Notes under the pieces: generated by a model
What the model saw: only the letters and a program-made list of their open reading frames with translations
Database searches by the model: none
What the model was told of the DNA's origin: nothing
Shown here: positions 6,364 through 63,666 of the stretch, in pieces
Numbering within the stretch: the first letter of the stretch is position 1
How the letters are laid out: every line of letters begins with the position of its first letter
Made by a program: the position numbers and the translations under genes
NCBI GenBank assembly: GCA_017458675.1
Contig: JAFTAM010000182.1
Location: forward strand, 1-63,962
Length of the DNA: 63,962 nt
Direction: 5' to 3'
DNA from: a bacterium
GTDB lineage: Bacteria > Vulcanimicrobiota > Xenobia > Xenobiales > Xenobiaceae

Positions 6364-6396
6364 CTCTAAATTATTCTTTAAATACTTAGCTTAACG

Positions 6397-8337: not shown

Positions 8338-8520
8338 TAGAACAATCCTCTCGGGCAAAAGATTAACGCGCCGACTCAAAAACGCGAAAAAGAAATATAA
8401 CTATGTGGTTTTCCCACTTTCTCTTTAGGTTCCTTCCTGCTTTTGCTATGACTTGCCCAGTTAAGTAAACTAACCATTTCGAACTCAAGCCGGAAGATAT
8501 CTGCATAACGAATATCGCAT

Positions 8521-8563
8521 AAAAAAATTCCGTTCCTCCCATCGGAAGAACGGAACTTTTTTG
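8521..8563 (-). terminator. Terminator after the Asp-Thr-tract lipoprotein gene
   Basis: Stem AAAATTCCGTTC / GAACGGAACTTTT with a 12-nt loop, A-run on one side and T-run on the other, 35 bp past the stop codon of the gene ending at 8598. Confidence 0.85.
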
Positions 8564-8597
8564 TCACAGATTAAACTGTTTGACTGACGTCCAAAGC

Positions 8598-22649: not shown

Positions 22650-22910
22650 GCAGTCGGCAAGTTAAGCGAAAACGCGCTTTCAGCATACATGCTCCGCACA
22701 GGCTAAATTTTGCACAGGAGCGAGCGCCGTGAGCGAAGCGCAGCCGCGGAGCGAAGCGCTAAACATAACCGACATAGCGAAAACATACATAACATATTTG
22801 AAAGATTCTTCGCTGCGCTCTCAATGACAGGGCAAACGTTTACAAGCATAATGCAGAAATGCTGTTGTGCCATTTTTAGCGAAATCCAGTATTAACTTAA
22901 TGACATTGCA
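22650..22910 (+). repeat. Dispersed intergenic repeat, copy 4
   Basis: Head CAGTCGGCAAGTTAAGC, 'TTTCAGCATACATG', GC-rich core (GCGAGCGCCGTGAGCGAAGC), 'GATTCTTCGCTGCGCTCTCA' and tail TTAACTTAATGACATTG. The outer arms are more diverged here than in copies 1, 2, 5, 6 and 7. It fills most of the 648-bp gap before ispF; nothing gene-like is seen in 22380-22650. Confidence 0.8.
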
Positions 22911-35212: not shown

Positions 35213-35464
35213 GGCTGCCGGCAAATTAAGCAAAAACAAGCTTTCAGCAGACATGCTTCGCACAGGTTTTCTTTTGCTCTGAAGCGAGCGTCCGAGCGGA
35301 GCGCAGCCGCGGAGCGGCAGCGACAAAGAAAACCGACATAGCGAAAACAGGCGGAACATGATTAAAAAATTCTTCGCTGCGCTCTCAATAGATTTGCAAG
35401 CGTTGTGCAGTCAAGCTATCGTGTCATTTTCAGGAAAATATTTCCTTAATTTAATTACATTGGC
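35213..35464 (+). repeat. Dispersed intergenic repeat, copy 6
   Basis: Head CTGCCGGCAAATTAAGC, 'TTTCAGCAGACATG', arms GGTTTTCTTTTG and CAAAGAAAACC, 'ATTCTTCGCTGCGCTCTCAA', tail TTAATTTAATTACATTG. It sits in the 536-bp divergent region between the paired genes; the remaining sequence is AT-rich with no gene. Confidence 0.85.
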
Positions 35465-45485: not shown

Positions 45486-45520
45486 AAAAAAAGTCCGCCT
45501 TTGAGCAAAGCGGACTTTTT
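45486..45520. terminator. Terminator between giant lipoprotein cluster and gdh-like operon
   Basis: AAAAAAAGTCCGCCTTTG...CAAAGCGGACTTTTT, ending the lipoprotein gene that stops at 45565; the GDH-like start is 100 bp further on. Confidence 0.85.
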
Positions 45521-45564: not shown

Positions 45565-48500
45565 TTAGTCGACGGCCTTTAAAACATTGCGCGTACCTTT
45601 GCCGGAGCAGGTCTGGCATTTTTTAGTCGCCGCGCAGGTCGGACAGTTCATCTTGCCGGTGTCGCTGCAGGAGAAGCACTTGGAGGCTCCGGCCATTTTA
45701 AACGCCGAGCAGGCGACTTTGCCGCTGCCCTTGCAGGTTTTGCATTTGCCGCCGCCCTTTACATAGCAGGCCGAACAGGTCTGAGAGACCCACTTATTGC
45801 CCTTCTTGCCCATCTGGCTGCTGCAGCTGAGGCTGTAGGAGCGCTTCTTGGGAGTGAGAGCGAAAGACTTAATGCTCTTTTTGCTTCCGGCGGTTATCGT
45901 ACCGACTGTCAGCGTATCGGCGGAGGTCTTCGGAGTGAAGACGATCTTGCCGTCGGCATATTTGCTCTTGGACGTATAGGAACCGGAGGCTGTGCTCCAT
46001 TTCATGGAGGCGGCGGATACGGAAGAGGGAACGTTGGTCAGAGTTACGGTGTAGGCGACGCTGCAGGCCTTGAAGCCGGAGCCCATGCCCAGAGTTCGGG
46101 TATTGCGGCCCTCGTTGGGATTGGAGGCGTTCTTGTTCTGCCCGTACTTCATCGTGAAAGAGCTTGCATAGTACCTGTTGCCGACGGTAATCTTATTCAC
46201 CTTTATCGAAGCGGCCGTAGTTTTGACGGTATCAAAGTGCATGACGTAGCGCTTGGCGACGGGGTCGTATCTGACCGAGCCGTTGGCCGTATAGCTCTTG
46301 CCGCTGGGCAGAGTGTAGGTCATCGTGCCCTTGCGTCCGACGATGTTGGCGGTCCCGTTGGTTACATTGACCGCATAGCGCGTGTTCTGAGCCGACAAGC
46401 CGCTGTAAAGCAGGCCGTAAGTCTTGCCCATGGCGATAGAGCGATCCTTGACGCTGACAGAGTTATCCAGAGTTACGGACTTTATGACGGCGGTATCGTA
46501 ATCTATGCCGTTGAGCGCAGAGGGCGTAAAGGAGAAAGTATAGGTCTTATCGGCGGAGCTGTAGGTTCCGGCGGTCTTTTTGTAAGTTGATGAAGAATAA
46601 GCGCCGGTTTTGCTGTTGTAAAGCTTGTAAGTGACAACAATATAATTGGCCGCCGACTTGACGTTCTTTACCACCAGCTTGGCGTAAGGCATATTGGCGT
46701 ATTTAATTGTATTGGAGGATTTTACGCAGTTAAGGGCTATGCTGTTCGAATAAACTCTGCTGTTTACAATAATTTTTGTTACGGTTACATCGTCATTGGC
46801 ATTAAATTTAAAATTAACAGTCTGTGAAGAACTGTTATATGTGCCGCTTGCAGTATACTCAGTGGTATTGCCATACTTTTTATAATAAAGTCTGCACGAA
46901 GCGGGCTTAGAAGAAACGCCGCTGACGCTTTGACAGTAACTTATAGACTCGCGATCCATATTGCTGTAGCCGCTGAACAAATCCATACGGGAATTCATCT
47001 CCGGATTAAAATTGGTCAGCTTCTCGGAGCAGCTCATATAGCGGTTGTTGACCTGAACCTCTCTCAACACAATAATATCGGCGGCAGAGCTAATTCTTGC
47101 CTCCGCGTTTTCCGAAGACAAAATATTGTAATCTGAAGCGCTGCCGGCGAATAAAGCCTCGCGAATCTCCGAGGAATTGCCGGCGGTGTATCTGAGCTTC
47201 AGAGACGAACCGGCAGGCTTGGTAAATTTAAAAATATAGTCAATGGGTTCGCCGAGTACAAAATCATAGTAAGACAGCACCTCGATATGAGCGCTGCCGT
47301 TAAGCTCGATTCTCTTGGCGGTCTCATAGGAAGCGGCGCCGACCTCAATTTTGTTGAGAGTTATATAAGAAGCGTTCGTTAAAATTTTTCCGAAGGTCAG
47401 CATATTGTCATCATAAGAAGCAATACTGACGGTTTTAACCTCAGAGGCGCCGTCCTCGGTGTAGGAGAGGCTGAACTCAGTCGGCTCGCAGGCCAGATCG
47501 GTTATGCGGAAATAGACGTATTTGCCGTATAAGGTTTCAGCCCCGGCCTCGCCGTCGTAGATTAGCCTGAAGCTTTTCAAGCTTTCAGCCTCGCCGCCTA
47601 CCGGCTCGGCCCCGCTCTCCTGCCTCTGGGCGATTTCAACGGTACAGCCGCCTTTTTCCGCGTCAATCTGCAGCGGGAAGAAAAGGAAGGCCCCGTCCTC
47701 GCTTCCGGAGTTCTCGCTAAGGCTGAGACTTTCAAGCTTTATAGGGAAAAGCTCGCTGTCGATATCGAAATATATGCGCAGAGCGTTGTTTTCATCCAGG
47801 ACAGCCTCGCTGCTGCGGACGCTGCCGTGCGCTCTTCCGTCATAGCTGAGCGGAACAGCCACGCCTGCCTCGGAAGAAGGAGCGGAAGCGGCGCTTTCGC
47901 CCTGAGCGGCCAAAGTCTGCGCCTCGGCTTCCTCTTCGGGAACGGCCTCGGCCTCCAAAGCGGCGGCTTCTGCAGCCTCGCCGTCCTCGGCTCCGCCTTC
48001 TTCAGTCTCTAAAGCGGCTTCCGGTTCGGCCTCAGCCGTCTCATCCTCCAACTCGGCAGCTTCCGAATCAAGCTCCGCATCATCCGTGCAGGGCTCGGAG
48101 ACATGCTCATGATCGCAGTCCCCGCAGTCTTCGCCGATTTCCTCAGCTCCGCCGGCAGCTGCGCTGTCTTCGCCGCCTTCAGAGTCGTCTTCACCGTCAA
48201 GAGGCTCCTCCTCATAATCAAAAGCAGCTTTGTCCGCGGCTTCCTGCTGCAGAAGCTCCGCTTTTTCCTCATCGGTATACAGAGGGATGGGAACCTCGGC
48301 CGAAACTTTGCCGTTTGCCGAAGCATCGACGCTCAGTTCGCAGATATTTAAAACCGCCTGCAGATTCTCGGGAGCGATTTCCCCTCCGTAATCGGGCAAT
48401 AATAAACATAGGCGCTGAGCGCTTGCCAAATCGGCCTTTACCGCGGCGGCCTCGCCCTTGCCTAAATCATATCTGCTGTCGGAGCAGGCCGAAAGCAAAG

Positions 48501-48579
48501 AAGCCAGCAGCAGCAAAAGGCCCAAAAATAAGCTGAGCTTTAAAGCCGACGTCCGTCTGAGTCCGAAGGACCTATCCAT
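45565..48579 (-). CDS. Giant lipoprotein with beta-repeats and DnaJ-like Cys-rich tail (A)
   Basis: A 1004-residue lipoprotein: lipobox LLSAC near residue 32, an acidic Glu/Ala-rich linker (about 100-215), then repeated beta-sandwich units of about 100 residues ('VKVNKITVGNRYYASSF', 'VTKIIVNSRVYSN', 'REVQVNNRYMS' mark the same strand in successive repeats). The last 70 residues (about 933-998) hold CxxC pairs with CKGSGK, CSDTGK and CSGKGTR, like the CxxCxGxG zinc module of DnaJ, which is normally cytoplasmic. Strong GGGAGG ribosome site. It is 45 bp downstream of metallopeptidase-like gene B1. Decayed homologues lie at 58123-61363 and 61820-62768. Confidence 0.8.
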   Translation of the reverse strand: MDRSFGLRRTSALKLSLFLGLLLLLASLLSACSDSRYDLGKGEAAAVKADLASAQRLCLLLPDYGGEIAPENLQAVLNICELSVDASANGKVSAEVPIPLYTDEEKAELLQQEAADKAAFDYEEEPLDGEDDSEGGEDSAAAGGAEEIGEDCGDCDHEHVSEPCTDDAELDSEAAELEDETAEAEPEAALETEEGGAEDGEAAEAAALEAEAVPEEEAEAQTLAAQGESAASAPSSEAGVAVPLSYDGRAHGSVRSSEAVLDENNALRIYFDIDSELFPIKLESLSLSENSGSEDGAFLFFPLQIDAEKGGCTVEIAQRQESGAEPVGGEAESLKSFRLIYDGEAGAETLYGKYVYFRITDLACEPTEFSLSYTEDGASEVKTVSIASYDDNMLTFGKILTNASYITLNKIEVGAASYETAKRIELNGSAHIEVLSYYDFVLGEPIDYIFKFTKPAGSSLKLRYTAGNSSEIREALFAGSASDYNILSSENAEARISSAADIIVLREVQVNNRYMSCSEKLTNFNPEMNSRMDLFSGYSNMDRESISYCQSVSGVSSKPASCRLYYKKYGNTTEYTASGTYNSSSQTVNFKFNANDDVTVTKIIVNSRVYSNSIALNCVKSSNTIKYANMPYAKLVVKNVKSAANYIVVTYKLYNSKTGAYSSSTYKKTAGTYSSADKTYTFSFTPSALNGIDYDTAVIKSVTLDNSVSVKDRSIAMGKTYGLLYSGLSAQNTRYAVNVTNGTANIVGRKGTMTYTLPSGKSYTANGSVRYDPVAKRYVMHFDTVKTTAASIKVNKITVGNRYYASSFTMKYGQNKNASNPNEGRNTRTLGMGSGFKACSVAYTVTLTNVPSSVSAASMKWSTASGSYTSKSKYADGKIVFTPKTSADTLTVGTITAGSKKSIKSFALTPKKRSYSLSCSSQMGKKGNKWVSQTCSACYVKGGGKCKTCKGSGKVACSAFKMAGASKCFSCSDTGKMNCPTCAATKKCQTCSGKGTRNVLKAVD

Positions 48580-48624: not shown

Positions 48625-51600
48625 TTAATCTATGTCCTGACCGTAAATTAAACTGTTATTGAAGAGCATCATCTTAAAGAAGCTGTTCATACCGCCCCAC
48701 ATGCCGAATACGCTGGAAGAAGCTCCGACGGAATAGGTCATATTGGGAGTGATATAATAGTTCAATGACCAGGGCACGATATCGGAAACCGATAAATTTG
48801 TCCCCATGCCGACTGGCGTAATCGGCGGGAGAGCTCCGTAATACTGATAAGCGGCTGCGGTCAGACTGGAATCGTAGGTCTTGCCGGGAATTAAAGTGGA
48901 CAGCCGATAGGCGGAAGGGATACTGTCGGCGGCGCCGGAGCTGTTTAACAGCAGAGCCTTGCCGTAATCGGCATAAATATCCGCAAAGCTGACTTCCTTC
49001 CCGGTATCCTCGCCGACAACGGCGGCCAGCAGATCAAAATCCTTATGAGCAGCTCCGTACGGTAAATTAGCATAGTCGCTGTCATTGGGAGAACTGTTGT
49101 AAAATTTGTTAACCGTATTTAAACCGTAGTGATCGTAAAGATAGGTCAGGAAGAAGCAGCCCTGGCCGTAATTGGCAATCGTAGAGCTTCCCGAAGCGGC
49201 ATAATAGCCGGCGTCTTTAATGCTGTAGCTGCCGAGGCCGTTCAGATAAGAATACGACTTAACTCGGCGGTCCAAAGCCTTGGATGCATAACTGACTGCC
49301 CAGGAGGGCAGAGACGTCAGACCGACAAGGTTTTGGAATTCCGAAAAATCCCCGGTTCTGTCGTCGCAGCCGAAACCGCACAGGAAGCTGCACAGATCGG
49401 CATGGCCCTCTTCCAGAATGCTCATTCTGTCTACATAGCGATTGGCAGCCGCAATGTAACCGTCGGGCATATCGCGGAAGGCTCGGGTATTGAACGACAC
49501 CATATGGGCAAATTCATGGGCGAAATTTGAACACATGCTGGCCGGATCGAACTGCTGATATTTCGAGTAATTAAATGTGATCATCTCACATTCGTTGCTG
49601 GTATTTATCAGTTTCCTGGGGAAGCAGTTGGTGGCTATAGTATAAGCGATAGTGCCGCTTTCTCCGATATCGGCAATTGATATTACAACCTTTTCGAGTT
49701 CGCTTACGCCGCCTCCGCAGCCGTATCCGCATTCATGGCCGACGTCGGAGCGGATGCGCTCAAGCACAGGCTTGCCCTCTGAATCGAAGGGATTCTTGAC
49801 GCCCAGCATATAATCTATCATCAGAACTTGGAGAAGATCTACAGAGTTTGTCAGATCCAGAAGCGGCGTACCGTCCTTAATCTCCGCTAAAATAATGACC
49901 TTCCCCGAAGTCCTGTAGCCATTGCTTAAAGTCAAGCCGTCGCCGCCCAAAATTACCTTGGCGTCATAAGAGGCTTTGCGTACGGAGTCGTATACGCCGC
50001 TGACGGTGTCTCCGCTTTTGGCGTTGACATAATCGAGAGTCTTCGGATAAGCGTCGTCCATACTGAAATTGAGCCGGGAACCGCCCGAATTCTTTTTGAA
50101 CTTCTCAAAAGCTTCGGCTTCCTGTCTGCGGATCTCCGACTCGCCCTGCCCGCCGCCGTCAAGAGTTTTTGTCAATCTTCCGTCCGCCTCCGCCGCCGAC
50201 TGATTGACGGCCGAGGGCGTTCCTCCGGCGATACCGCCGCTGAAGCCGCCCTTGGTAGAGGTTCCGTCCGGCGCATAAATCGCCAGCGTCACCGCCCGAT
50301 TATTTGACAAATCGGCCTGTCCGTACTGATACAAACTGTCGCTGCAGACGCCTGAAGCATAAGCTTTCAGGTCGGCGTACCGGCTGCCCAGAGCCGCTCT
50401 GAACGTAGATTCGCCGGCCCGGCCTATTCTCCAGGAGTTATTGGCCGCGCCCTTGGTCATATCCGAACTGGACCACACCGCCTCGGTCGAGACGTCGCGG
50501 GTCTGGATAATTTTGCCGGAATTGAAGGTCAGCTCAGCCTGGGCGCTCCCGACGACGTATTCGCCAGGTCTCTTCAAGCTATGACCGGGAGAAGCCGCAA
50601 AGGACTTAATGTAAGCGTCCATGGCGCTGCCGGAAGCGACGCTGACGCCGTTTAAAACCGCCTTATTGTCCTCGCCGAAATTCAGGGCCTGATAATGCAG
50701 ACCGGCCAGCTGGCCGGAAGTATTTTTCACCTTTATGACAATGCCGTCGGCTTCGGACGAAACCTCGTCAAAACTCAGGGATGAGGAACTGTTTCTGCTG
50801 AACTCTTCGCTGACCGCAGTCCCTTCCTTAAAAAGCTGACAGTAAATCAGCGAAGAATTCGCCGGCAGGCCGTCGGCGGCGAAATTGATTTCGACGCTGT
50901 ATGCCGGCGGAATATCGGCGACAAAAATCTGCGCCGATGAAGAGGTTAAACCTCTGTAGGAGGCGCTGATGATATATTGGCCCGCTTCATAGACCTTGAG
51001 CCGGTACTTTGCTTCAGAAGAATAATACTCCAAATAAGGGGCGCTGTTTAAAGCGAAATCCTCCCAGCCGCAGATATCGCTTCGGCTGAAGGTCTCCGAC
51101 CAGCCGTCTGCGTAGCCGTAAGTCAGGGCGGGCTCAGTACTGACGGTTAAATAGCCGTCGGCGTTCTTATTTATGAGCTGATATTCTGCAGGCGAAATGC
51201 TTAAGCTCAGCTCGGCTTTTTCCTGAGCAAACTGCTCCCCGGTCAGCAAATCGGGCTGGTTAATCCTGCAGATCTGCCCTTCCTTCAGGCTGATATTCTG
51301 TTCAAACATGCCCCAGGGCTCGCCGTCGGAGGTCTTTATGACGCCGATAACCTTGACGGTATTTTTGTTTATATCCGCAAAGGTCGAATTCAAATCGGAA
51401 ACGCCCTGCTCGCTGAAAAGCAGCGTGCCCCGGCTGCTGTAGCCGCGCGCCTCATAAACGGCGCCCGAAGGCAGTCCGGAAGAGCTGAGATCGATATTGA
51501 GCTGATAATCTCCGCTTACAGGACTGGAAGAGTCGATAACTTCTACAGAGAATACGCCCGTAATGCCCCGATAGCTCACCGAAACCGTATACTCGCCGGC

Positions 51601-52992
51601 CTCAAAGAAGCGAAATACTCCGTACTCCTCCGAATCCGAATCTTCCGCCTTGAAACTGCAGAGCCGCTCCAGGAAATCGCCGGCCGAGCTGTAAGCCCAG
51701 ACCCCGGGAATAATGCTGTAGCGAACCTCGGCGCTGCAGTGCACATAGACGCTGCGGCTGTCCGATTCGGTCTTTTCGTAAACCAGTTCCTCATCGGCGA
51801 GATCGTAAACCGCTTTATCGCCGCTTATGACCATCTCGCCGCAGGCAGCCAGTTCTTCGCCGCAGATAATCCGGGGATTGCTCAGCGTGCAGCTCTTTTG
51901 TCCCTTCAAATTTACATCTGCACAGAAGATACCGTAAACCTGACCGTCGCTCTCCAGCAGAATGCCGGCCACCTTGGCGACGCTCTGATCGGCCTCAAGG
52001 CAATCCTTTAAACCGGCGCAGTTTTTGCGGAAGCGAAGCTGATTGTCAGCGTCATAGCCGCGCGCCTCCAAACTGAGATCGGAAGGCAGGCAGCAGCGGC
52101 TTAAATCCAGCTTCAGAGCGCAGGGCTTTTCTGCGGGAACAGGCTCGGGATCGGCGACGGTAATCGGATCAATACTGTTTCCGGCGTTATCCGCCGCGGC
52201 GTCTCCGCCGGCAGGCTCGGAGGGGCTAGCCTTTTCAGGGGCTGAGGCCGCTCTGACAATAATATCGGCGGCGATCTGTTTTTGGCCGAGAGAAGCGTAA
52301 ACCTTTACGCCGCCGCCGGAAAGAGCTTTAAAGCTTCCTCCGCCTAAGTGCCTGAGCACGGAATTATTGGAGCTTTCCCAAACCAGGCGGCTGCAGGAGG
52401 TAAGATCGCAGAGCAGTTCCGCTCCGTTTCGGCAGCTGAACGCGCCCTCGGCCTTGAGCTGAACCTTCTCCCCCGTCCTGAGCTTAACGGGAGCGGCCGA
52501 TGAAAAGCGCAGAAGGCTCAGACGCTCGCCCAGTTCGGCGGCGGTGGAAGCAAAATCGGGATTATTCAGCGTAACTTCAGCGCCGGAAGTTAAATCCAAA
52601 GCTATGCTTTCGGTCAAGCCTATGGGGTTTTGATATTTATCTCTTAACAGGCAGACCAGAGACTGAGCCGAGACGGGCACGCCGTGCAGAGTGACGCAGC
52701 CCAGCTTAAAATCGCCGCGCTGAACCGTTTTTGTATAACAGACGTTCAAATTCTCATCATAAAGAGTGAATTCAAAGCTCCTGACGGTAAGCTCGACGGT
52801 CTTGTATTCCGGGAAATCGAACTTTATTTTAATATCGGCGGTCCTTTGTCCGGCGCTTATCGCCGAAATTCCGCTGGCGTCGGCGCTTACCCGCGAATCG
52901 CCGCAGCCTGCCGCCGAAAAGGCCGAAGCCGCCAGCATAAAAGCGATAGAGGCAAAGGCAATTTTCGCATTGTTCCTGTTGAAAAGATCCAT
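48625..52992 (-). CDS. Giant lipoprotein with HEFAH metallopeptidase-like domain (B1)
   Basis: A 1455-residue lipoprotein from ATG 52992 (a TTG six codons earlier is unlikely, since the paralogue B2 starts at the same place); lipobox SAAGC at Cys30. The N-terminal 1000 residues contain three copies of a beta-domain marked by 'LSLEARGYDADNQLRF', 'AVYEARGYSSRGTLLF' and 'SLIYCQLFKEGTAVSE', interleaved with Ig-like parts. The C-terminal part has the zinc motif HEFAH at 1159-1163 and a Glu at 1194 in 'LEEGHADLC', 31 residues after the second His, as in gluzincin peptidases; the 'AHEFAHMVSFN' context recalls peptidase family M30 (hyicolysin). Substrate unknown; likely outer-surface. Confidence 0.8.
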   Translation of the reverse strand: MDLFNRNNAKIAFASIAFMLAASAFSAAGCGDSRVSADASGISAISAGQRTADIKIKFDFPEYKTVELTVRSFEFTLYDENLNVCYTKTVQRGDFKLGCVTLHGVPVSAQSLVCLLRDKYQNPIGLTESIALDLTSGAEVTLNNPDFASTAAELGERLSLLRFSSAAPVKLRTGEKVQLKAEGAFSCRNGAELLCDLTSCSRLVWESSNNSVLRHLGGGSFKALSGGGVKVYASLGQKQIAADIIVRAASAPEKASPSEPAGGDAAADNAGNSIDPITVADPEPVPAEKPCALKLDLSRCCLPSDLSLEARGYDADNQLRFRKNCAGLKDCLEADQSVAKVAGILLESDGQVYGIFCADVNLKGQKSCTLSNPRIICGEELAACGEMVISGDKAVYDLADEELVYEKTESDSRSVYVHCSAEVRYSIIPGVWAYSSAGDFLERLCSFKAEDSDSEEYGVFRFFEAGEYTVSVSYRGITGVFSVEVIDSSSPVSGDYQLNIDLSSSGLPSGAVYEARGYSSRGTLLFSEQGVSDLNSTFADINKNTVKVIGVIKTSDGEPWGMFEQNISLKEGQICRINQPDLLTGEQFAQEKAELSLSISPAEYQLINKNADGYLTVSTEPALTYGYADGWSETFSRSDICGWEDFALNSAPYLEYYSSEAKYRLKVYEAGQYIISASYRGLTSSSAQIFVADIPPAYSVEINFAADGLPANSSLIYCQLFKEGTAVSEEFSRNSSSSLSFDEVSSEADGIVIKVKNTSGQLAGLHYQALNFGEDNKAVLNGVSVASGSAMDAYIKSFAASPGHSLKRPGEYVVGSAQAELTFNSGKIIQTRDVSTEAVWSSSDMTKGAANNSWRIGRAGESTFRAALGSRYADLKAYASGVCSDSLYQYGQADLSNNRAVTLAIYAPDGTSTKGGFSGGIAGGTPSAVNQSAAEADGRLTKTLDGGGQGESEIRRQEAEAFEKFKKNSGGSRLNFSMDDAYPKTLDYVNAKSGDTVSGVYDSVRKASYDAKVILGGDGLTLSNGYRTSGKVIILAEIKDGTPLLDLTNSVDLLQVLMIDYMLGVKNPFDSEGKPVLERIRSDVGHECGYGCGGGVSELEKVVISIADIGESGTIAYTIATNCFPRKLINTSNECEMITFNYSKYQQFDPASMCSNFAHEFAHMVSFNTRAFRDMPDGYIAAANRYVDRMSILEEGHADLCSFLCGFGCDDRTGDFSEFQNLVGLTSLPSWAVSYASKALDRRVKSYSYLNGLGSYSIKDAGYYAASGSSTIANYGQGCFFLTYLYDHYGLNTVNKFYNSSPNDSDYANLPYGAAHKDFDLLAAVVGEDTGKEVSFADIYADYGKALLLNSSGAADSIPSAYRLSTLIPGKTYDSSLTAAAYQYYGALPPITPVGMGTNLSVSDIVPWSLNYYITPNMTYSVGASSSVFGMWGGMNSFFKMMLFNNSLIYGQDID

Positions 52993-53151
52993 ACCGCCGC
53001 CTTTCGTCAATAAAATAATTTCTGTTGACGCAGAGTATTTCCGCAGTTAAATGCCGCTTAAACGCAGACTGCACGCTTTAATTATAACAAAACCACGCTG
53101 TTTTCAATTTATTATCGGTTAATTTTTTGTAAATATAGATCGAACCGAGCT

Positions 53152-56100
53152 TTAGTTCAGATCGCGCTCGTATGTGCAGCCGCCGAACATCAGCATTTTA
53201 AAGCGGCTCGTCAGGCTGCCCCACATGCCGAAAATGCCGGTGGAGGGACCGAGCGAATAAGACATATCAGGGGTGATATAGTAATTTAAAGACCAGGGGA
53301 CAACGCCGCTTTCCGTGAAAGCGGTTCCCTTATTTACAGGCGTAATTTTCGGCAGATCACCGTACCAGCGGTATTCTTCGGGAGTAAAGCCGGAATCGTA
53401 GGACCTGCCGGGAACTAAAGTAAAAAGCCGGTAATCGGAGGGGATACCGTCCGCCTCACAGATGCTGTTGAAAAGCAGAGTCTTGCCGTATTCTTCGTAA
53501 AGCTCCTCAAAGCTGACCGTTCTTCCCTCAGCTTCGCCGACGATGCGGGCCAGCATATCGTAGTCCTTATGAGAAGCCCCTGCGGGTATATCCTGATACT
53601 CGCTGTCATAGGGAGAGCTTTCGGTAAATTTCTTTACGGCGCTCAGACCGTAACGGTCGTAAAGATAGGCTAAAAAGAAACAGCCCTGTCCGTAGTTGGC
53701 TATGGTTGAATTGCCCGCGCTTCCGCAGTAGCCGGAATCTTTAATGCTGTAGCTGCTTATCTGCTTCAGATAGAGATGAGCTTTAGCCCGGCGATCCAAA
53801 GCCTTGGAACAATACACGCCGGCCCGGTCAGGCAGCGAATCCGCGCCCGTAAGCTCCTTAAACTCCGCAAAGCTCTCAGTCCTGTCGTCAATGCCGAAGC
53901 CGCACAGGAAACAGCAAAGATCGGCGCGTCCCTTCTCCAGATCGGAGGCCCGGCGGAAATACGCCTTTATGGCCTGGTTATAGCCGTCGGGCATATCCCG
54001 GAAGCTTCTGGCGTTATAAGAAACCAGATGTGAAAATTCATGGGCAAAGTTAGAGCAGATGCTGGGCGTATCAAACTGCAGATATTTAAAGTAATTGAAC
54101 GTGATCATTTCACATTCGTTGCTGTTGCTGTATATGCTTTTGGGGAAGCAATTGGTGGCGGTCGTATAGGCGATAGCTGCGCCTTCGCCCATATCGGCTA
54201 CGGATATGACGACCTTTTCAAGTCCGCTGACGCCGCCTCCGCTTCCGTAGCCGCATTCATGGCCCAAATCCTGACGGATGCGATCGAGAACGGGCAGGCC
54301 GTCCTTGTCGAAGGGGTTCTTTACGCCCATCATATAATCGATCAGAAGAACCTTCCGCAGTTCCTCGGGATCACTCAAATCCAACAGCGGCGCGCCGTCC
54401 TTTATTTCCGCCAGAATAATAATCTTGCCCGAAGTGCGGTAGCCGTTGGGCAGAGTTATGCCTTCATTGCCCAAAATCACCTGAGCGTCGTAATAGGCGC
54501 CGCGGCTGTAATCGTATATGCCGCTGATTGTATCGCCATCTTTGGCGTTGATATAATCGAGCTTTCTTACGGCTTCATCCTTATTGAGGACGAACATGCC
54601 CGAATCGGACAAGCTGTTATTTTTCGCGGAAAAAAGCTTCTCCTCCAAATCTTCAATTTCCGATTCCGCTCTGCCCTCAATTTCAATTTGTCTCAAAAGC
54701 TCTCTGTCGGCCACAGGCTCTTCTTTGTCATAATCTGCGCCATGCTCGCCGGCGGCGGAACCGGCGGCGACTTTGCCGCCGAAGCCGCCTCTGTCGGACG
54801 TGCCGTCGGGAGTATATACAGCTATGCCGACCGCGCGGCCGCCGCTTAAATCGGCTTCGGCATACTGATAATTCTTATCGTCGCCGGCTCCGGAAGCGTA
54901 AACCTTTACGTCGGCGTACTTGCTTCCCAGGGAAGCTCTGAGCGAAAGCTCGCCGGCGCGGCTCACCCTCCAGGAATTGCCAACCGCGCCCTCGGCCATA
55001 TCGGAGCTCGACCAGATCGCTTCTGCCGAAACATCGCAATTCTGCAGGATTGTGCCGGAATTGAAGCTCAATTCGGCCTGCGCTCTCCCAATCAGAACTT
55101 CGCCCACGTTTCTCAGGGTATAGGCGGGAGAGACTGAAAAAGACTTGATATAAGCGTCCAGGCCCGCGCCCGAAGCGACGCTGACATTGTTCAGAACAGC
55201 CTCATTGCCGCTGAAGCTGAAGGCTTTGTATAAAAGACCGATCAGCTGCCCGGAAGCATTTTTAACCTTGATAACGACGCCGTCGGCTCCGCCGGAGACG
55301 CCCTCCATATTAAGAGAGGAAGCGCTGCTGCGGATGAATTCCTCGCTGACCGCGGTTCCGCCCTTAAAAAGCTGACAGCAAATCAGAGCGGAATCCTCCG
55401 GCAGGCCGGCAGCGGCAAAATTGACGGCGACGCTGTAATTTGGCGCCGGAGTATCGAAAACACTAATCTGCACCGAAGCGGAAGTCAGGCCGCGGTATGA
55501 GGCGCCGATCGCATACTGCCCGGGCTCATCAGCCTTGAGCCGGCATTTGTCGGCGGAATCATAATACTCCAAATGAGGAGAGCTGCCGAGGGCAAAGGCG
55601 TCCCAGCCCTTCAGATCCTCCCGGCCGAAAGACTCAGACCAGTTGCCGGCATAATTGTAGGTAATAACCGGCGAAGCAGAGATCGCCGCATAACCGTCGG
55701 CGTCTTTATCTTCGAGATAATAGCAGAGCTTAGGAATACTGAAGCTCAGAGAGCCCTTCTGAGCGGCAAGCTGTTCGCCGATCAGCATTGCGGGCTGACT
55801 TATCCGACAGATCTCCCCGTCTTCGAGGCTGACGTTCTGCTCAAATACGCCCCAGGGCTCTCCGCCGGACGTCTTAACTACGCCGACCACTCTGACGACA
55901 TTTTTATTTACATCTTCAAAAGTCGGATTCAGATCGGAAACATTCCCCTCGCTGAAAAGAAGCGTGTTGCGCCGGCTGTAGCCGCGCAGCTCACAGACCG
56001 CTCCAGAGGGCAGATTGGAGGCGCTGAGATCGACATTGAGCCGATAATCGCCGCTCGAGGGAGAGGCTGAATCAATAACCTCTACGGAAAAGACTCCGGT

Positions 56101-57561
56101 TACGCCGCGATAGCTGACCGAGACCGTATATTCGCCGGCTTCAAAGAAGCGGAAAACTCCGTATTCATCCGATTCCGAGTCTTCCGTCTTAAAGCGGCAG
56201 AGCTTCTCCAGGAATCTGCCGGCCGAGCTGTAGGCCCAGACCCCGGGGATTATGCTGTAGCGGACCTCGGCGCTGCAATGCACATAAACGCAGCGGCTGT
56301 CTGACTCGTTTTTTTCGTAAACTAACTCCTCGCCGCCCAGATCGTAAACCGCTTTATCGCTTGCCAGAACCATCTCGCCGCAGGCGGCCAGTTCCGAGCC
56401 GCTGAGAACCCGAGGATTGCTGAGCGTACAGCTGTCCTTCCCCTGCAAATCAACATCGGCGGCAAATACGCCGTAAACCTGGCCGTCGCCCTCCAGCAGG
56501 ACGCCGGCCACTTTGGCGACGCTCCGGTCGGCGGCAAGGCTTTCCTTTAAACCGACATTCGTACTGCGAAAGCGAAGCCGATTGTTAATATCGTAGCCGC
56601 GCACTTCAATACTGAGCCCGGCGGGCAGGCAGCAGCGGCTCAGATCCAGATTCAGCGCGCAGGGACTTTCCACCGGAACAGGTTCGGGATCGGCTGCAGT
56701 AATCGGATCGGTATCGCTTCCGGCGCTTTCGCCGCTGACCGTTCCGGCGTCGGAGCGCTCTGCATCGCTGTCCGCCGGCTTATCTTCCTGCTGAAGCTGC
56801 CCGGGAGAGGCGGCCGCCCTGACAATTATATCGACTGCGGCCTGCTTTTGGCCGATAGAGGCATAAGCCCTGACGCTGCCGCCGGAAAGAGCCTTAAAAG
56901 CGCCCCCGCCCAGGTGTCTGAGCAGAGAATTGTTCGAGCTCTCCCAGACCAGACGGCTGCAGGAAGTCAGGTCGCAGGAAAGTTCCGCGCCGCTGCGGCA
57001 GCTGAATACGCCCTCTGCCTTGAGCTGAACTTTCTCCCCCGTTCTGAGCTTAACCGGCGCGGAAGGCGACAGACGCAGCGCGCACAGGCGCTCCCCCAGT
57101 TCGGCGGCGGTAGAAGCGTAATCGGGATTGTTTACCGTAACCTCGGCGCCGGGAGCTAACTCCAAAGCGGCGCTTTCGCTCAGGCCGATGGGATTGCCGC
57201 AGGCGTCCCGGAAAAGGCAGACCAGGGACTTGGCGGAGACGGGCGCGCCCTGCAGAGTTATGCAGCCTTGCTTAAAGTCGCTGCGCGAAGCCGTTTTAGT
57301 ATAACATACGGCCAAAGCGTCATTGTAAAGCGTAAATTCAAAGCTCTTAACTTCGGAAGCGACGGCCTGATAGACAGGAAAATCAAATTTAACTTTAATA
57401 TCGGCGTTTCTTTGCGCGGCGGTTACCGCGGCCGCGCTCCCCCCGCCCTGAGCGCAGACCCGGGGTTCTCCGCAGCCGGTCAGGGAAAAGGCCGAAGCCG
57501 CCAGCAGAAAAGCGATAGAGGCAAAAGCTATTTTTGCGTTATTTTTGTTGAAAATGTCCAT
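53152..57561 (-). CDS. Giant lipoprotein with HEFSH metallopeptidase-like domain (B2)
   Basis: A 1469-residue paralogue of B1 with the same layout and similar length; lipobox SLTGC at Cys30. The zinc motif HEFSH is at 1174-1178 and the third ligand candidate Glu1209 is in 'DLEKGRADLC', again 31 residues after the second His. Conserved blocks with B1 include 'RNADIKVKFDFP'-like beginning, 'SCDLTSCSRLVWESSNNS', 'RFFEAGEYTVSVSYRG' and 'GYGSGGGVSGLEKVVIS'. The neighbours are tandem copies 159 bp apart. AAAGGCG precedes ATG. Confidence 0.82.
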   Translation of the reverse strand: MDIFNKNNAKIAFASIAFLLAASAFSLTGCGEPRVCAQGGGSAAAVTAAQRNADIKVKFDFPVYQAVASEVKSFEFTLYNDALAVCYTKTASRSDFKQGCITLQGAPVSAKSLVCLFRDACGNPIGLSESAALELAPGAEVTVNNPDYASTAAELGERLCALRLSPSAPVKLRTGEKVQLKAEGVFSCRSGAELSCDLTSCSRLVWESSNNSLLRHLGGGAFKALSGGSVRAYASIGQKQAAVDIIVRAAASPGQLQQEDKPADSDAERSDAGTVSGESAGSDTDPITAADPEPVPVESPCALNLDLSRCCLPAGLSIEVRGYDINNRLRFRSTNVGLKESLAADRSVAKVAGVLLEGDGQVYGVFAADVDLQGKDSCTLSNPRVLSGSELAACGEMVLASDKAVYDLGGEELVYEKNESDSRCVYVHCSAEVRYSIIPGVWAYSSAGRFLEKLCRFKTEDSESDEYGVFRFFEAGEYTVSVSYRGVTGVFSVEVIDSASPSSGDYRLNVDLSASNLPSGAVCELRGYSRRNTLLFSEGNVSDLNPTFEDVNKNVVRVVGVVKTSGGEPWGVFEQNVSLEDGEICRISQPAMLIGEQLAAQKGSLSFSIPKLCYYLEDKDADGYAAISASPVITYNYAGNWSESFGREDLKGWDAFALGSSPHLEYYDSADKCRLKADEPGQYAIGASYRGLTSASVQISVFDTPAPNYSVAVNFAAAGLPEDSALICCQLFKGGTAVSEEFIRSSASSLNMEGVSGGADGVVIKVKNASGQLIGLLYKAFSFSGNEAVLNNVSVASGAGLDAYIKSFSVSPAYTLRNVGEVLIGRAQAELSFNSGTILQNCDVSAEAIWSSSDMAEGAVGNSWRVSRAGELSLRASLGSKYADVKVYASGAGDDKNYQYAEADLSGGRAVGIAVYTPDGTSDRGGFGGKVAAGSAAGEHGADYDKEEPVADRELLRQIEIEGRAESEIEDLEEKLFSAKNNSLSDSGMFVLNKDEAVRKLDYINAKDGDTISGIYDYSRGAYYDAQVILGNEGITLPNGYRTSGKIIILAEIKDGAPLLDLSDPEELRKVLLIDYMMGVKNPFDKDGLPVLDRIRQDLGHECGYGSGGGVSGLEKVVISVADMGEGAAIAYTTATNCFPKSIYSNSNECEMITFNYFKYLQFDTPSICSNFAHEFSHLVSYNARSFRDMPDGYNQAIKAYFRRASDLEKGRADLCCFLCGFGIDDRTESFAEFKELTGADSLPDRAGVYCSKALDRRAKAHLYLKQISSYSIKDSGYCGSAGNSTIANYGQGCFFLAYLYDRYGLSAVKKFTESSPYDSEYQDIPAGASHKDYDMLARIVGEAEGRTVSFEELYEEYGKTLLFNSICEADGIPSDYRLFTLVPGRSYDSGFTPEEYRWYGDLPKITPVNKGTAFTESGVVPWSLNYYITPDMSYSLGPSTGIFGMWGSLTSRFKMLMFGGCTYERDLN

Positions 57562-58122: not shown

Positions 58123-61100
58123 TCAGCTCTTGAAGCCGGAAGCCATGTTCAGGGTTCTGGTGTTGATAGTCTCGAGACCTTCGATAGCGGCGGAATTGGC
58201 TTTGTTCTGGCCGTATTTCAGAGTGAAGGAACTGCCGTAATACTTATTGCCGACGGTAACCTTGTTTATCTTAACGGACGCGGCCGTAGTTTTGAGGGTC
58301 TCAAAGTGCATCACATAGCGGCCCTTATCCGAATCGTATTTTACCGTTCCCTTAGCGGAGTAAGCGGCGCCGTTGAGAGTATATTTCATCGTTCCCGTCT
58401 TCCCGCACACTCCGGAGGTTCCGCTGTACACGTTCACCGAATAGCGCGTGTTCTGAGCCTTCAGGCCGCTGTAAAGCAAATTGTAGGTTTTGCCCAGACT
58501 GATAATACGCTCGGCTGTGCTGACCGAATTGTTCAGAGCGACCGATTTGACGGCGACCGTGTCGTAAGCCGAGCCGTTCAGCGCCGAGAGCGTGAAGGGG
58601 AAGGTATAGGTCTGATTGACGGAACTGTAGGTTCCGGCGGTCTTGCTGTAGGTAGAGGAAGAAGCGACGGTCTTGCTGTTGTAGAGCTTATATTTTACCA
58701 TTATGTAATTGGCCGCCTGCGGCACGTTTTTGACGATCAACCGGGTCGAGAACATATTGGCGTATTTAATCGTACTGTTCGGGTTGGGATAGGTCAGGCT
58801 GACGCCTTTGCTGTAAAGCTTGCCGTTGACGACGATGGAAGCGACTTTGACGTCCTCCTTGGCCTTGAAACGGAAGTTTACCGTCTGGGCGGAGGCGTCG
58901 TAGGTTCCGCTTACGGTATACGTCCTGGAACTGTCGTTATACAAAACGTACGACAGTCTGGCGGAATTGGGCTTGGCGCTGACTCCGCTCACGCTCTGGC
59001 AGCAGCTTACGGATTCGGCGGACATATCGCCGTAAGCTATGGAAAAGTTATCTTTGATTTTGGAATCGACGTATTTATAATGGTTATTAACCACTATTTT
59101 GTCTAAAGAAATAAAGCTTCTGAATTCCGGAATAATGAAGGTTACTTTCTTATCGGCGGGGCTGTAGGATCCTTCGGCGCAGACCGCTCCGACATAAGAA
59201 TCGCCTCGGCAGTATTTTGCCTTTCCGCTTCCGTAAGAAGGCACGCCGCTGACAGTAACCTCATAGTTCTTCAGCATCGCCCCGTCCTGACGAAACCGCC
59301 GAAGAGCAGCGCTTCCCTGCAGACGCCGCCGCTGAGATCTATCCGCCTGTCGGCGTTAAAAACATATGCGGCGACTTCAATCCGCTTAAGAGTTATATAA
59401 GAAGCGTCGGTAATAATGCCTCCGAAGGTGAGCGCGCCGTCCTTATAGGAGGCGATATTGACGGTTTTTTCTTCCGAACCGCCGCCGACCGTATAGACGG
59501 CCCTGAAGGTGTCGGGATTGAAAGGCAGATCGACGATTCGCACATACGCCCGCTTCAGGCCGTCGGCCCCGCCGGAAGCGCCGTTTTTGGCGAACTGCGA
59601 GAAACTGACGCTTTGAATTCTGGCGGCAGGACAAAGGGTGATATATCCGCTGCAAACATAATCATCCAGCGTTATTTCCTTTACGACTATATCGTCCGCC
59701 TCGCCCGAGGCAGAGGCTAAATCGACAAAGGCGGCAAGCGTTTTGGCCTCTTTATCAAAGACCGCGCCTTTTAAAACCTCGGCCGTCGTCTCCGGACCGT
59801 CGGCGCCGCGGCAGTACTTTATTCTGCCCAGCGACGGCTGAGCGTCAATATTATTTATAATTATTTTGCCTATAATTCCGATATCGCTTTCGGCGGCGGC
59901 CCTGTCGGCGGCAAAACCGTTATAATCCAGAGAGAGCAGATTGCCGCAGCCGTACCAGCATCTTGAGAAACCCTGCCAACGGCTCTCCGAACCTTCAAGC
60001 CCGGTCAGAACTATATCGTCATACTTGTCGGCGCAGACAAAATTCAAACGCCAATACACCGTGTATCCGGTCCCGTCATTTATGACGCCGTCCGCTTCAA
60101 ATACGCCGGAGCGCCTATTGTAGGCCGCGCCCGAATTCAAGCTTTCCGCATGCGAGCTTATATACGAATTTCTGAATTTATCGGCTTCATTCGCAGTCGG
60201 GATATTGACGACGCATACCGTGGGGCTTTGAGTGAAACCTAAATCAAAGGACGAATAGCTGATTTCTATGGCGTCGCCCATTACATCCCCATCGTCGCCG
60301 CCGTCAAATCCGCTGAAATCCATCGCTTCGTTATAAGTTAAGTTATTGGTCAGGTCGTTGACGGATAAGACATGTATTTCCGGAGAAGGGGCCGTTTCCG
60401 TCAGACAGATCTGCACGGCGTTGTTTTCCGGATCGTAGAAATAATCGTTATCGGCTAATTTAAGCGTCTTAACCCGAACGAACGGATCGCTCCCCGTATA
60501 GTAGCTTACGACGAATTGCTGAGGGATGTCAGAGGGGACCTCCTGCAGGTCGAGCACCGCCTCCAAGGTTACCGCCGCGCTCTTCAAACCGGCGGCTTTG
60601 GCGCAGAACCCGACATTTTTATTCTCCGCTTCGCGTCCGGTCTGAGCGGCCCGCATTTCCCGCTTCCAGCTGAGCCAGAAGGGAGCGCCGCTGTTCCGGG
60701 CGGCTGTATCCAGAGGAATTTCAAAGAGAAAAGCCCCGTCTCCGCTCTCAGAAGTATTGTACAGGCAAAGCGAATCGACGCTGATCGGATAAAGGCTCGG
60801 ATCGATCTCAAAGTAAAAGCGCAGGGTACCTTCCCCGTCCAAGGCAGCTTCGGAGCTGGACACGCTGCCGTGCATCAGAGCCTCTTCGCCGCCGGCCCTC
60901 CAACTCTCCCGAGCTTCATCTTCAGCAGCCTTGGCCTCAGGCTCGGCGTCGGTATTATCGCCTGAAGTCTGCATTTCGGCCTGCTCTTCGAGGATGGCGC
61001 CGCCGTCTTCGTCGTCCGCGGCTCCGTCAGCCACAGCGGGGTTCGCCTCGACTTCGGCGGCCTCTTCAGCCTGCAAGCTCTCAGGCTCCCGAAAGCCTCC

Positions 61101-61363
61101 TTTCCGTTCAGCGCAGCCGCCGCATCCTGCTGACGGAGGCTCAGAACCGCCTTCAGATTTTCAACGGGTACAGAACCGTCGTAATCGGCAAAGGATATGC
61201 ACAGACGCTCAAACTGAACGCCTGCCCCAGCCTCCCGCCCGCAGCCTCCGTCCGTTCTGCCGTCGGCGCAGGCCGAAAGCGCGGCGGCAAGCATGAACAA
61301 AAGCGCAAAGCATAGGCTGAGCTTCAGGTTTTTAGGCTCGGTTTTCACGACGGCAGCTTCCAT
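58123..61363 (-). pseudogene. Frameshifted, truncated copy of lipoprotein A (A')
   Basis: Three consecutive frames together align with protein A. Piece 1 (61363 to about 61100) has a strong GGGAGG ribosome site and lipobox LSAC; the frame is then lost near 61100 and continues in another frame (acidic Glu/Ala linker, 'HGSVSSSEAALDGEGTLRFYFEID', which matches 'HGSVRSSEAVLDENNALRIYFDID', each quoted in part). A second shift lies at 59271-59277 next to a GGGG run. The last piece ends at 'NMASGFKS', where A continues 'GMGSGFKACS', so the last beta-unit and the Cys-rich tail are missing. Sequencing error could explain one shift, not the truncation. Confidence 0.78.
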
Positions 61364-61458: not shown

Positions 61459-61670
61459 ACTGTCGGTATTTAAGCAAAAACAAGTTTTTCGGCAGACATG
61501 TTTAATAAAGGTTTTCTTTGACGCATACGCGGAGATTCGAGCATTGCTCGCGCAGAGCGGCGCCGCAAAGAAAACCGACATAGCGAAAACATACAGAACA
61601 TTCTTTAAAGATTCTTCGCTACGCTCAGAATGACAAGGGAAACATTTTGCCTTAACTTTATGACATTGCC
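61459..61670 (+). repeat. Dispersed intergenic repeat, copy 7
   Basis: Head ACTGTCGGTATTTAAGC, arms GGTTTTCTTTG and GCAAAGAAAACC, core CGCATACGCGGAGATTCGAG, 'GATTCTTCGCTACGCTCAGA' and tail TTAACTTTATGACATTG. Most of the 456-bp gap between A' and the fragment at 61820. Confidence 0.85.
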
Positions 61671-61819: not shown

Positions 61820-62768
61820 TCAGTTGATGCCAACGAAACCGATACATATGCCTATGTGATCTTTATCCTTGCAGCAGGATCGGCATTTACCGTCATGGTG
61901 GCAGTTGGTACAATTATTTATGTTGGGATATAAACCGCGACAGACTCTGCAGACGCCGTTGCCGGCTTTAAGATCACCGGTTAGATCTGAACCGGAACCC
62001 GGCACATAACAATTCGGACAACCAAAATTTACTTTTTTATTGCCCTTTGTGCCCATATTCCCTTCGTAACTGAAATATGCTTCCCCAACCATATAATCAG
62101 TCAATGTGGGAGATAAGGCATTGAGTCTTTCCGTGCTTTTCTGATCGCCTATCCTTATATAAGTGACATAAATGTTATCAGCGGGACTCTTAAAGCGATA
62201 GTTCATCGTTCTGCTGTCGCTGTCATATACGCCTTTCACAGAATACTTTTCATTATCGTCGGTTTCAAAAATTAACGTATTGCTTAAATTTGAAGGGACG
62301 TCAATAACTCTGAATCTGTAAGGTACTGCGCATTGTTCAAAATCCGAAGATACATCTAAATAAACATAATTGGTAGTGCCATTAGTTTGGCCGTTGGTGA
62401 CATTGAAACCATAATTGAACAGCATATTGCCTACTCTTATTTTTTCAATCTGAACACTATCAGCCGCTGTGGTTATTTTAAATTCAAATCTGTCATTGCC
62501 CCAAGAGCTTATCTCAGCAGTACGACGTTCGCCGTCAGCAACATATATCAACTCTTTATCCGCAGATTTAAAATCAAACGGTAATTTTGATTTACTGTCG
62601 CCGATTATGATGTCATATGTATTGATATTGGCAATCTCAGGGTAATCTATTTCTAAAGGAACGCCAGCAGACAGTTCTCTGCCTCCTATCGCAGTTATAA
62701 GATTTACTTTGTTTAAAAATAATTTAACCTCGTGAATATATATGCTGCAGAGGGTAGTTTGAGACTAA
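61820..62768 (-). pseudogene. 5'-truncated fragment of a third A-type lipoprotein (A'')
   Basis: The frame stays open from a TAG at about 62766-62768 to the stop at 61820, but has no plausible start or signal peptide; the first codons read TTLCSIYIHEVKLFLNKV. The sequence aligns with the end of protein A: 'DFEQCAVPYRFRVIDVPS' with 'GFKACSVAYTVTLTNVPS', 'MGTKGNKKVNFGCPNCYV' with 'MGKKGNKWVSQTCSACYV', then CxxC pairs (CRVC, CTNC, CRSC). It is more AT-rich than A. The missing 5' part ends where the mobile element begins, so insertion is a likely cause. A start at TTG 62551 would give a 243-aa product without signal peptide. Confidence 0.7.
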
Positions 62769-63019: not shown

Positions 63020-63376
63020 CTATGAAACAGTATGATCGATGTGAACACTTAACTCCGGCACTTGTACATAATATGATGATATTTGTATTAGTTCACTTTT
63101 ACCGCGATTATTTAATTTATTGAAATTTAATAATAGTTTTGATTCATCGCTGTTAACCTCTTCTTGACACCTAAAGCAAGAATCTATACGAAGCCCTACA
63201 AATTCGGCGATTTGATCAAATTGCAATAGAGTTAAATTCTTTCCGCCTCCGTTTTCCCATCTATTTACAGTCACTCTGGTTACGCCCATAAGGTTAGCTA
63301 ATTCTTCTTGAGAGATTCCTTTAGCTTTTCTGGCTATTTTAATTTGATTCATTAAATATTTAGAAAATGTATCCAT
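63020..63376 (-). CDS. XRE-family repressor of the Mu-like element
   Basis: A 118-residue DNA-binding protein from ATG 63376 (AGGAA about 10 nt upstream; the TTG at 63421 is weaker). Helix-turn-helix at about residues 10-65: 'ISQEELANLMGVTRVTVNRWE'-type sequence (quoted in part: SQEELANLMGVTRVTVNRW). The C-terminal half (LLLNFNKLNNRGKSELIQIS) would mediate oligomerisation. Position and direction match the Mu c repressor, though Mu c itself is not XRE-type. Its start codon overlaps operator O1, so it is probably autoregulated. Confidence 0.82.
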   Translation of the reverse strand: MDTFSKYLMNQIKIARKAKGISQEELANLMGVTRVTVNRWENGGGKNLTLLQFDQIAEFVGLRIDSCFRCQEEVNSDESKLLLNFNKLNNRGKSELIQISSYYVQVPELSVHIDHTVS

Positions 63377-63387
63377 ATATGATACAT
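63367..63387. promoter_or_regulatory. Operator O1
   Basis: Perfect 7-bp inverted repeat ATGTATC-(7)-GATACAT covering the repressor start codon. Confidence 0.75.
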
Positions 63388-63414
63388 TTCCTAAGTAATA
63401 ACTATGTTCCCTAG

Positions 63415-63442
63415 TTGACAATGTAAAATATAATGATACAAT
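63415..63442 (+). promoter_or_regulatory. Rightward early promoter
   Basis: TTGACA (63415-63420), 16-bp spacer, TACAAT (63437-63442). The -10 overlaps operator O2; would drive the Cro/Ner-like gene and transposase. Confidence 0.65.
63421..63441. promoter_or_regulatory. Operator O2 (imperfect)
   Basis: ATGTAAA-(7)-GATACAA: same 21-bp layout as O1 and O3 with one degenerate half, placed on the promoter spacer and -10. Confidence 0.55.
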
Positions 63443-63477: not shown

Positions 63478-63666
63478 GTGAATTGGCTAAAAAAAGCGAG
63501 GAAAAGATTAGGGTTAACTCAGCAACAGCTTGCAGATAAACTGGGTGTAACACGTATTACAGTTGCACGGTGGGAAACAAAGAGACAGCCGAGTTTAAAT
63601 AGACTTTTTGAAATTTCAGCGCTTTTAAATTTAGAGCCTTATGTCGTTCTCAGTTGTGATTATTAA
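63478..63666 (+). CDS. Small Cro/Ner-like HTH regulator
   Basis: A 62-residue protein that is essentially one XRE-type helix-turn-helix (LTQQQLADKLGVTRITVARW). GTG start with GGGGA 8-9 nt upstream. By position it is the Ner/Cro counterpart that would shut off the repressor and early transcription. Its recognition helix 'VTRITVARWE' is almost the same as that of the repressor ('VTRVTVNRWE'), so both probably bind the same operators. The stop overlaps the transposase start (TAATG). Confidence 0.85.
   Translation: MNWLKKARKRLGLTQQQLADKLGVTRITVARWETKRQPSLNRLFEISALLNLEPYVVLSCDY

Follow-up and report, generated by a model that had tools for sequence, protein, structure and literature searches.

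A predicted exported lipoprotein of the Vulcanimicrobiota with a DnaJ-like cysteine-rich tail

Disulfide bonds are the usual explanation for the stability of extracytoplasmic proteins. Among the described proteins that come closest to the one considered here are BSD2, PSA2, LQY1, CYO1 and ZnJ2, which we take to carry CxxCxGxG modules without a J domain, as it does. According to the respective reports, ZnJ2, a chloroplast protein, binds zinc and prevents aggregation, i.e., has chaperone activity (PMC5818400); LQY1 and CYO1 bind zinc and have protein disulfide isomerase (PDI)-like activity in thylakoid membranes (PMC3800646); and PSA2 is located in the thylakoid lumen, an exported compartment (PMC7662858). 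Among the matches listed in the open-licence literature, no account of exported bacterial CxxCxGxG modules was found. The protein that is the subject of this paper is encoded in a stretch of 63,962 nucleotides (nt) from a bacterium of the family Xenobiaceae (phylum Vulcanimicrobiota; assembly GCA_017458675.1, contig JAFTAM010000182.1, positions 1 to 63,962), and “the window” refers to this whole stretch. A preliminary description of the window, made from its sequence alone, had proposed an open reading frame (ORF) for a lipoprotein with a DnaJ-like cysteine-rich tail; its coordinates are right, and the three peptides that it named (CKGSGK, CSDTGK and CSGKGTR) are all present, as is a lipobox at Cys32 (Table 1). 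With modest confidence, we favour the view that this protein carries a zinc-stapled, protein-binding head on a lipid-anchored, immunoglobulin (Ig)-like stalk, with metal replacing disulfides.

The ATG of the ORF is preceded by a Shine-Dalgarno-like GGGAGG, and the protein begins with the signal MDRSFGLRRTSALKLSLFLGLLLLLASLLSAC, in which an n-region, an h-region and a lipobox with its cysteine (RRTSALK-LSLFLGLLLLLASLLSA-C) can be recognised by eye, SignalP not having been used. The LSAC lipobox is present also in the homologue (L011) from a second genome of the same genus (G001; the window's own genome is G000) and in a broken copy of the gene, A′, within the window. Judged by its signal, the protein is thus supported as an exported lipoprotein, and its acylation and membrane placement are predicted. 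The region before the tail is modelled as consecutive β domains, with AlphaFold block means of the predicted local distance difference test (pLDDT) mostly 62–89 and dips to 34–52. Its Foldseek matches are multi-Ig proteins, both bacterial (the TIE protein 6fwv, E = 1e-8, pilins and putative adhesins) and animal, the TM-scores of all of them being low over the whole chain. Scans of the whole protein against Pfam (to E 1) and NCBIfam gave no match, the J domain included, and a scan of the genome collection with the whole protein gave none either. The acidic spacer contains CGDCDHEH at residues 152–159; this was considered as a second conserved site and dropped, as neither L011 nor A′ has it.

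The cysteines of the protein are concentrated in its tail, with 11 of the 25 in the last 84 residues. They form five CxxC pairs (935/938, 946/949, 968/971, 979/982 and 988/991) plus a single Cys957, and can be divided into a core of four pairs (935/938, 946/949, 979/982, 988/991) and a three-cysteine insert (957, 968, 971). Five or more CxxC pairs arose in 0.22% of 100,000 shuffles with the composition of the tail, and 11 cysteines per 70 residues in none of 5,000 shuffles of the whole protein (maximum 10, every second position being scanned). In an alignment of the tail with eight exported modules and a paralogous fragment from the window, A″ (alignment A8), the four core pairs are invariant in all ten rows, the three-cysteine insert being peculiar to the tail.

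The preliminary description had also stated that the cysteine pattern is under constraint, and that A″ keeps the pairs with a different spacing. The latter is accurate, since the four core pairs of A″ are present and the insert is missing. As no signal sequence can be recognised in A″, which is found amid pieces of broken paralogues, it is a relic and weak evidence of constraint, and its use as proof was dropped; heme binding was dropped as well, CxxCH occurring only in this relic (CTNCH). Better evidence comes from other relatives. A search of 58 genomes with the whole protein found matches in the window's own genome and in G001, where the homologue is split over two contigs (L011 and L010); the relatives in the own genome are a 5′-truncated copy on another contig (C57; L002), the window's A′ and A″, and, on a further contig (C73), a fragment. 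All 11 tail cysteines are kept in L010, at 59% tail identity, and in L002, compared with 1/7 of the cysteines of residues 343–920 in L010, and the ratio of nonsynonymous to synonymous substitution rates (dN/dS) against L002 is 0.105 for the tail, the lowest of four regions (0.131–0.299 for the other three). Constraint on the cysteine module of the DnaJ-like tail is therefore supported by both homologues. Among 149 genomes of the phylum, the tail profile matched in 10 at E 0.01. A frame-shifted tail-like stretch, GASRCFYCDGAHGVPCPDQERCYKI, was seen in another genus of the same family (G004; L022 1440–1650), behind a gene for an AcrB-family efflux pump (E 5.8e-108). Divergent small ORFs for HTH_3 regulators adjoin A″ (63020–63421, minus strand, E 2.4e-13; 63478–63666, plus strand, E 5.7e-16).

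What the tail resembles was approached through profiles and models. One profile match is A5, a CxxCxGxG module of five motifs that precedes the membrane domain in seven of the phylum's proteins (L008 766–1857, minus strand, L053, L054, L055, L057, L058 and L077). A Rhomboid domain was found in all four of these that were scanned (L008, L053, L057, L077; E 1e-20 to 8.5e-37). Compared by hhalign, the tail profile matched A5 at 95.5–95.6% with a score of 43.4, which was reached by none of 100 column permutations (maximum 21.1) and none of 100 permutations with the cysteines fixed (maximum 34.9). A5 in turn matches the DnaJ cysteine-rich structure 1exk (E 5.1e-5) and BSD2 (6ekb, E 0.002). Thus, the likeness to DnaJ stands as far as the cysteine-rich CxxC/glycine module is concerned, although the comparison supports a nearer relation of the tail to the module of the rhomboid proteins than to true DnaJ. 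A second AlphaFold prediction, made from alignment A8, gave the tail a mean pLDDT of 65.5; Foldseek on this model returned 22 matches to E 10, none below 0.001, headed by 1exk and followed by BSD2, Ydj1, one Q-lambda chain and UvrA chains. With VIA-align, the highest score was that against BSD2 (6ekb; Z 3.1, root-mean-square deviation 3.6, 55 residues aligned), and the eight rows listed at Z ≥ 2 include no DnaJ; BSD2, UvrA and Q-lambda lie at Z 2.2–3.1, too low to use. Together, profiles and model point to a tail of the DnaJ/BSD2 kind, rather than prove it.

The preliminary description had regarded such a module as unusual outside the cytoplasm, a view that is not supported. A small protein of the window's own genome (L003, 1420–1725) has 102 amino acids (aa), a signal peptide and six CxxC pairs and passes the family DUF5351 (PF17302; 29.2 against a cut-off of 27 bits); it lies about 2.5 kilobases from a fragment of the tail-lipoprotein family. 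A profile of small exported CxxCxGxG proteins (A3), with signal peptides called by a hydrophobicity rule, found at least 30 matches in 17 of the 149 genomes, 25 of which follow a signal peptide, in 14 genomes. These counts are lower bounds, as scoring was limited to 32 first-look candidates in many genomes, and some of the assemblies, several in number, are incomplete. Exported modules occur in 11/18 genomes of the window's class as opposed to 3/131 outside it (Fisher P 7e-10, uncorrected for kinship). Five of the 25 exported matches have only two CxxC pairs (L101, L102, L103, L105, L113), and the five without a signal sequence by the same rule (L095, L096, L100, L104, L112) were rejected as exported. 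Six exported proteins (L109, L110, L111, L114, L115, L117) have in common a domain some 90 residues long (with sequences such as FNGxPSKxQV...VPVSFPV), behind which stands a C-terminal CxxCxGxG module; for the two scanned, L110 and L114, this domain had no Pfam match. No curated family names either L003 or L078, the two small proteins scanned, as an exported module.

Of 46 stretches in the named genome collection that fit the pattern, tblastn confirmed 11. Similar modules occur in records labelled as other phyla. A Synergistaceae-labelled protein has a signal, a module and an Ig domain (He_PIG, E 1.9e-10), and a Clostridia-labelled record also holds a protein with a similar exported module. 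Muribaculaceae and Blautia labels are unsafe, because a nearly identical protein occurs under both. One of the 11, L088, was rejected as a relative, as it has no module protein and, by eye, the stretch is out of frame with another gene. The protein of the window shares both traits of this group, i.e., core pairs in register and a signal sequence before the module. Exported CxxCxGxG modules occur at least partly in anaerobes, and this protein is a known kind of module in a new setting.

The distribution of these modules can be compared with that of the enzymes of disulfide formation. In searches of the 149 genomes at E 0.001, DsbB was found in 2 and VKOR in 82; a DsbB or VKOR match occurs in 0/14 genomes with an exported module and in 84/135 of the others (Fisher P 3.8e-6). 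As VKOR matches are missing throughout the window's class (0/18), this exclusion is mostly one contrast between clades: within the class, DsbB occurs in 2/18, neither having an exported module found, and outside it the figures are 0/3 with an exported module against 82/128 (P 0.05). The window's own genome gave no DsbB or VKOR match in an assembly that is 90% complete, and has a single DsbA-family match. DsbA-family proteins are not excluded, with matches in 5/11 genomes searched, including the exported-module genomes G000, G009 and G012; by eye, the proteins of G000 and G009 are without a signal sequence, and G012 has two matches. As to lifestyle, the same proteins are encoded in the records UBP9_UBA6111 and UBP9_UBA1432 and in two genomes of the window's family (G002 and G006, respectively), which suggests a placement of the window's organism in UBP9. 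UBP9 is treated as a class of Candidatus (Ca.) Eremiobacterota that appears ancestrally anaerobic, apparently comprising obligate anaerobes, and respiration genes were absent from the UBP9 genomes then available (PMC6664022). The host bacterium is uncultured and probably anaerobic.

The explanation favoured here can now be set out in full. From the membrane outwards, the protein would consist of a lipid anchor, an acidic spacer, an Ig-like stalk and a small head, stapled by metal, of the CxxCxGxG type known from DnaJ and BSD2. Most likely, the four core CxxC pairs would form two Zn(Cys)4 sites, to which the three-cysteine insert would be a lineage-specific addition, and the head would be a rigid protein-binding knob, by analogy with the way in which BSD2 and the DnaJ cysteine-rich region bind clients. 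Candidate partners, which the head might present or hold, are surface substrates or the M30-like peptidase lipoproteins encoded alongside it. That metal would replace disulfides is suggested by the apparent lack of a periplasmic disulfide-forming pathway in these bacteria. Since similar modules stand on exported proteins and the disulfide enzymes were not found, metal may act outside the cell as disulfides do elsewhere. More tentatively, and with the odds in our judgement leaning against it, this could be a general habit: anaerobes without a periplasmic disulfide pathway would staple small extracytoplasmic domains with exported zinc modules of the DnaJ/BSD2 type, in a broad, unnamed class of zinc-headed proteins that tends to exclude DsbB and VKOR and in which the module either is a small free protein or forms the tail of an Ig stalk or of some other ectodomain.

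Several observations weigh against this explanation. The three-cysteine insert has no explanation in the zinc-head model. The tail alone scored 15.3 bits (E 0.025) against PF00684 (DnaJ_CXXCXGXG), below the cut-off of 32.7, and in place of the four CxxCxGxG motifs of that family only two of the five pairs are strict (CKTCKGSG at 946, CQTCSGKG at 988); as all ten exported modules scanned miss the cut-off as well, this miss says little about function. A sequence search of the PDB with the tail or its profile, to E 1, gave no match, and the match of the tail to true DnaJ cysteine-rich regions (A6) was weak (23%), 1/100 permutations with fixed cysteines being as high. Part of the match to A5 is compositional, because the reversed tail profile still scored 32.5 (87%). 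Structure prediction, which the preliminary description had suggested as a check, gave a mixed picture: the first AlphaFold prediction did not model the tail (pLDDT 25–35), the other four models of the second lie at 40–49, and the fold matches are weak (best Foldseek match, 1exk, E 0.1; VIA Z ≤ 3.1). The full tail was seen in just two of the 149 genomes, G000 (two) and G001, and in G001 an element resembling an insertion sequence (IS) interrupts the gene. The contig breaks lie inside this element: L010 1–129 reads like the last part of a DDE_3 transposase (E 2.1e-5, short of the cut-off), and L011 2300–2545, with no Pfam match, resembles, by eye, the beginning of a transposase. Finally, the absences in the own genome are not firm, because of its incompleteness.

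Of the other explanations, the one that survives best, although we consider it unlikely, is that the tail is a disulfide-bonded cysteine knot, with the CxxC pairs oxidised outside the cell and no metal bound. The protein is exported, the exported cysteine-rich domains of aerobes are commonly oxidised, and an odd number of conserved cysteines (11) is at odds with Zn(Cys)4 sites alone; however, CxxC pairs with glycine turns resemble the profile of a metal module, and the own genome, for what its completeness allows, has no DsbB or VKOR match and a DsbA-family match without a signal sequence. Slightly less probable still, to our mind, is a head that acts as a thiol-disulfide or holdase chaperone for exported proteins, as plant CxxCxGxG proteins in or at the thylakoid are reported to do. 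The PDI-like activity of LQY1 and CYO1 (PMC3800646) and the anti-aggregation activity of ZnJ2 (PMC5818400) would fit such a role, but no redox partner was recognised by eye adjoining the gene, and a large Ig stalk would be more in keeping with a binding protein.

That the protein belongs to a decaying paralogue family and is no longer functional seems improbable. The truncated C57 copy, A′, A″ and the C73 fragment are all broken or partial, and the G001 copy is interrupted as described; against this, the copy in the window is intact across 1004 codons, and dN/dS against the C57 copy is 0.10–0.30, with the tail lowest.

The zinc-stapled head remains the preferred explanation, and the genes around it bear on what it might bind. 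The gap between the nearer of two genes for peptidase-like lipoproteins and the gene for the tail lipoprotein is 45 nt, and that between the two peptidase-like genes is 141 nt. Homologues of the peptidases were found in 10/19 genomes searched, the own genome included. One of these (L031) matches Peptidase_M30 (PF10460) with 22.9 bits (E 3.7e-5), below the cut-off of 25.8; the C-terminal 441 aa of the window peptidase had no PF10460 match to E 1, so the link to M30 is transitive via L031. The second peptidase has LEKG where its sister has LEEG and the G001 homologue NEGG, and may have lost its third metal ligand. In G001, a peptidase homologue (in L011) lies directly upstream of the homologue of the tail lipoprotein; as the order is the same, the pair has been kept between two species, and a joint function of the two can be guessed at. 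It is very unlikely that the head stores zinc or passes it to these adjoining M30-like metallopeptidases, for although their genes lie directly upstream in both the window and the sister species and the M30 family consists of zinc enzymes, binding in Zn(Cys)4 sites of this kind is tight and the role of such sites usually structural, and one of the two window peptidases seems short of a ligand.

The hairpin after the gene is weak by itself, because the window has 20 terminator-like sites where 17.1 are expected. Elsewhere in the window there are long arrays of repeats spaced by 12/18 nt (6341–9757, in or near the minus-strand ORFs 6397–8379 and 8598–11054) and dispersed repeats of 74–97 nt, direct and inverted (2364–2437, 22660–22841, 35224–35405, 61469–61647).

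Table 1. Coordinates in the window of the tail lipoprotein, its parts and the neighbouring features
Feature	Position	Strand	Basis
Tail lipoprotein ORF, 1004 codons/aa, ATG start	45565–48579	minus
Signal peptide and lipobox, residues 1–32, predicted cleavage between LLSA and C, before Cys32	48484–48579	minus	read by eye
Acidic low-complexity spacer, residues about 100–250	47830–48282	minus	sequence
Tandem Ig-like β domains (predicted), residues 546–920	45820–46944	minus	AlphaFold2 and Foldseek
Cysteine-rich C-terminal module, residues 921–1004	45568–45819	minus	sequence, alignments, profiles, model
Terminator-like hairpin (14 pairs), directly after the gene	45488–45520	minus	sequence scan
Upstream lipoprotein, 1461 aa, gluzincin-type motif HEFAH...LEEG	48625–53010	minus	sequence
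Second, paralogous lipoprotein, 1469 aa, 66% identical, HEFSH and LEKG	53152–57561	minus	sequence
A′, broken, tailless paralogue of the tail lipoprotein, with changes of frame and a TGA ahead of its last domain	58126–61363	minus
A″, C-terminal relic of a further paralogue, four core CxxC pairs kept	61820–62551	minus

The pattern across genomes is of more interest than the single protein. If exported CxxCxGxG modules carry zinc, they would represent another answer to the problem of stability in a set of anaerobes, an answer which, if true, can be tested with short proteins and would predict the lineages that use it. Recognising exported modules would also help to avoid mistaking such proteins for fragments of DnaJ.

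Compared with known systems, the tail is like the DnaJ cysteine-rich domain (PF00684, 1exk) in its repeated CxxC pairs with glycine turns. It differs in having five pairs and a single cysteine, only two of the pairs being strict, where DnaJ has four motifs; and, unlike DnaJ, the protein is an exported lipoprotein in which no J domain was found and which lies below the cut-off of the family. The plant DnaJ-like zinc-finger proteins differ from it in being chloroplast proteins (plant or algal), without a lipid anchor or an Ig stalk. Closer to home, the small exported proteins of the phylum (L003, L078–L082) have four to six CxxC pairs behind a signal peptide, and in L078 and L080–L082 the four core pairs align with those of the tail; these proteins, however, have about 60–120 aa, no stalk and no three-cysteine insert. 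A Prevotella-labelled lipoprotein (L084) has, like the protein of the window, a lipobox (LTSC) and a C-terminal CxxCxGxG module, but is only 152 aa long and has a glycine/serine-rich spacer in the place of the Ig domains.

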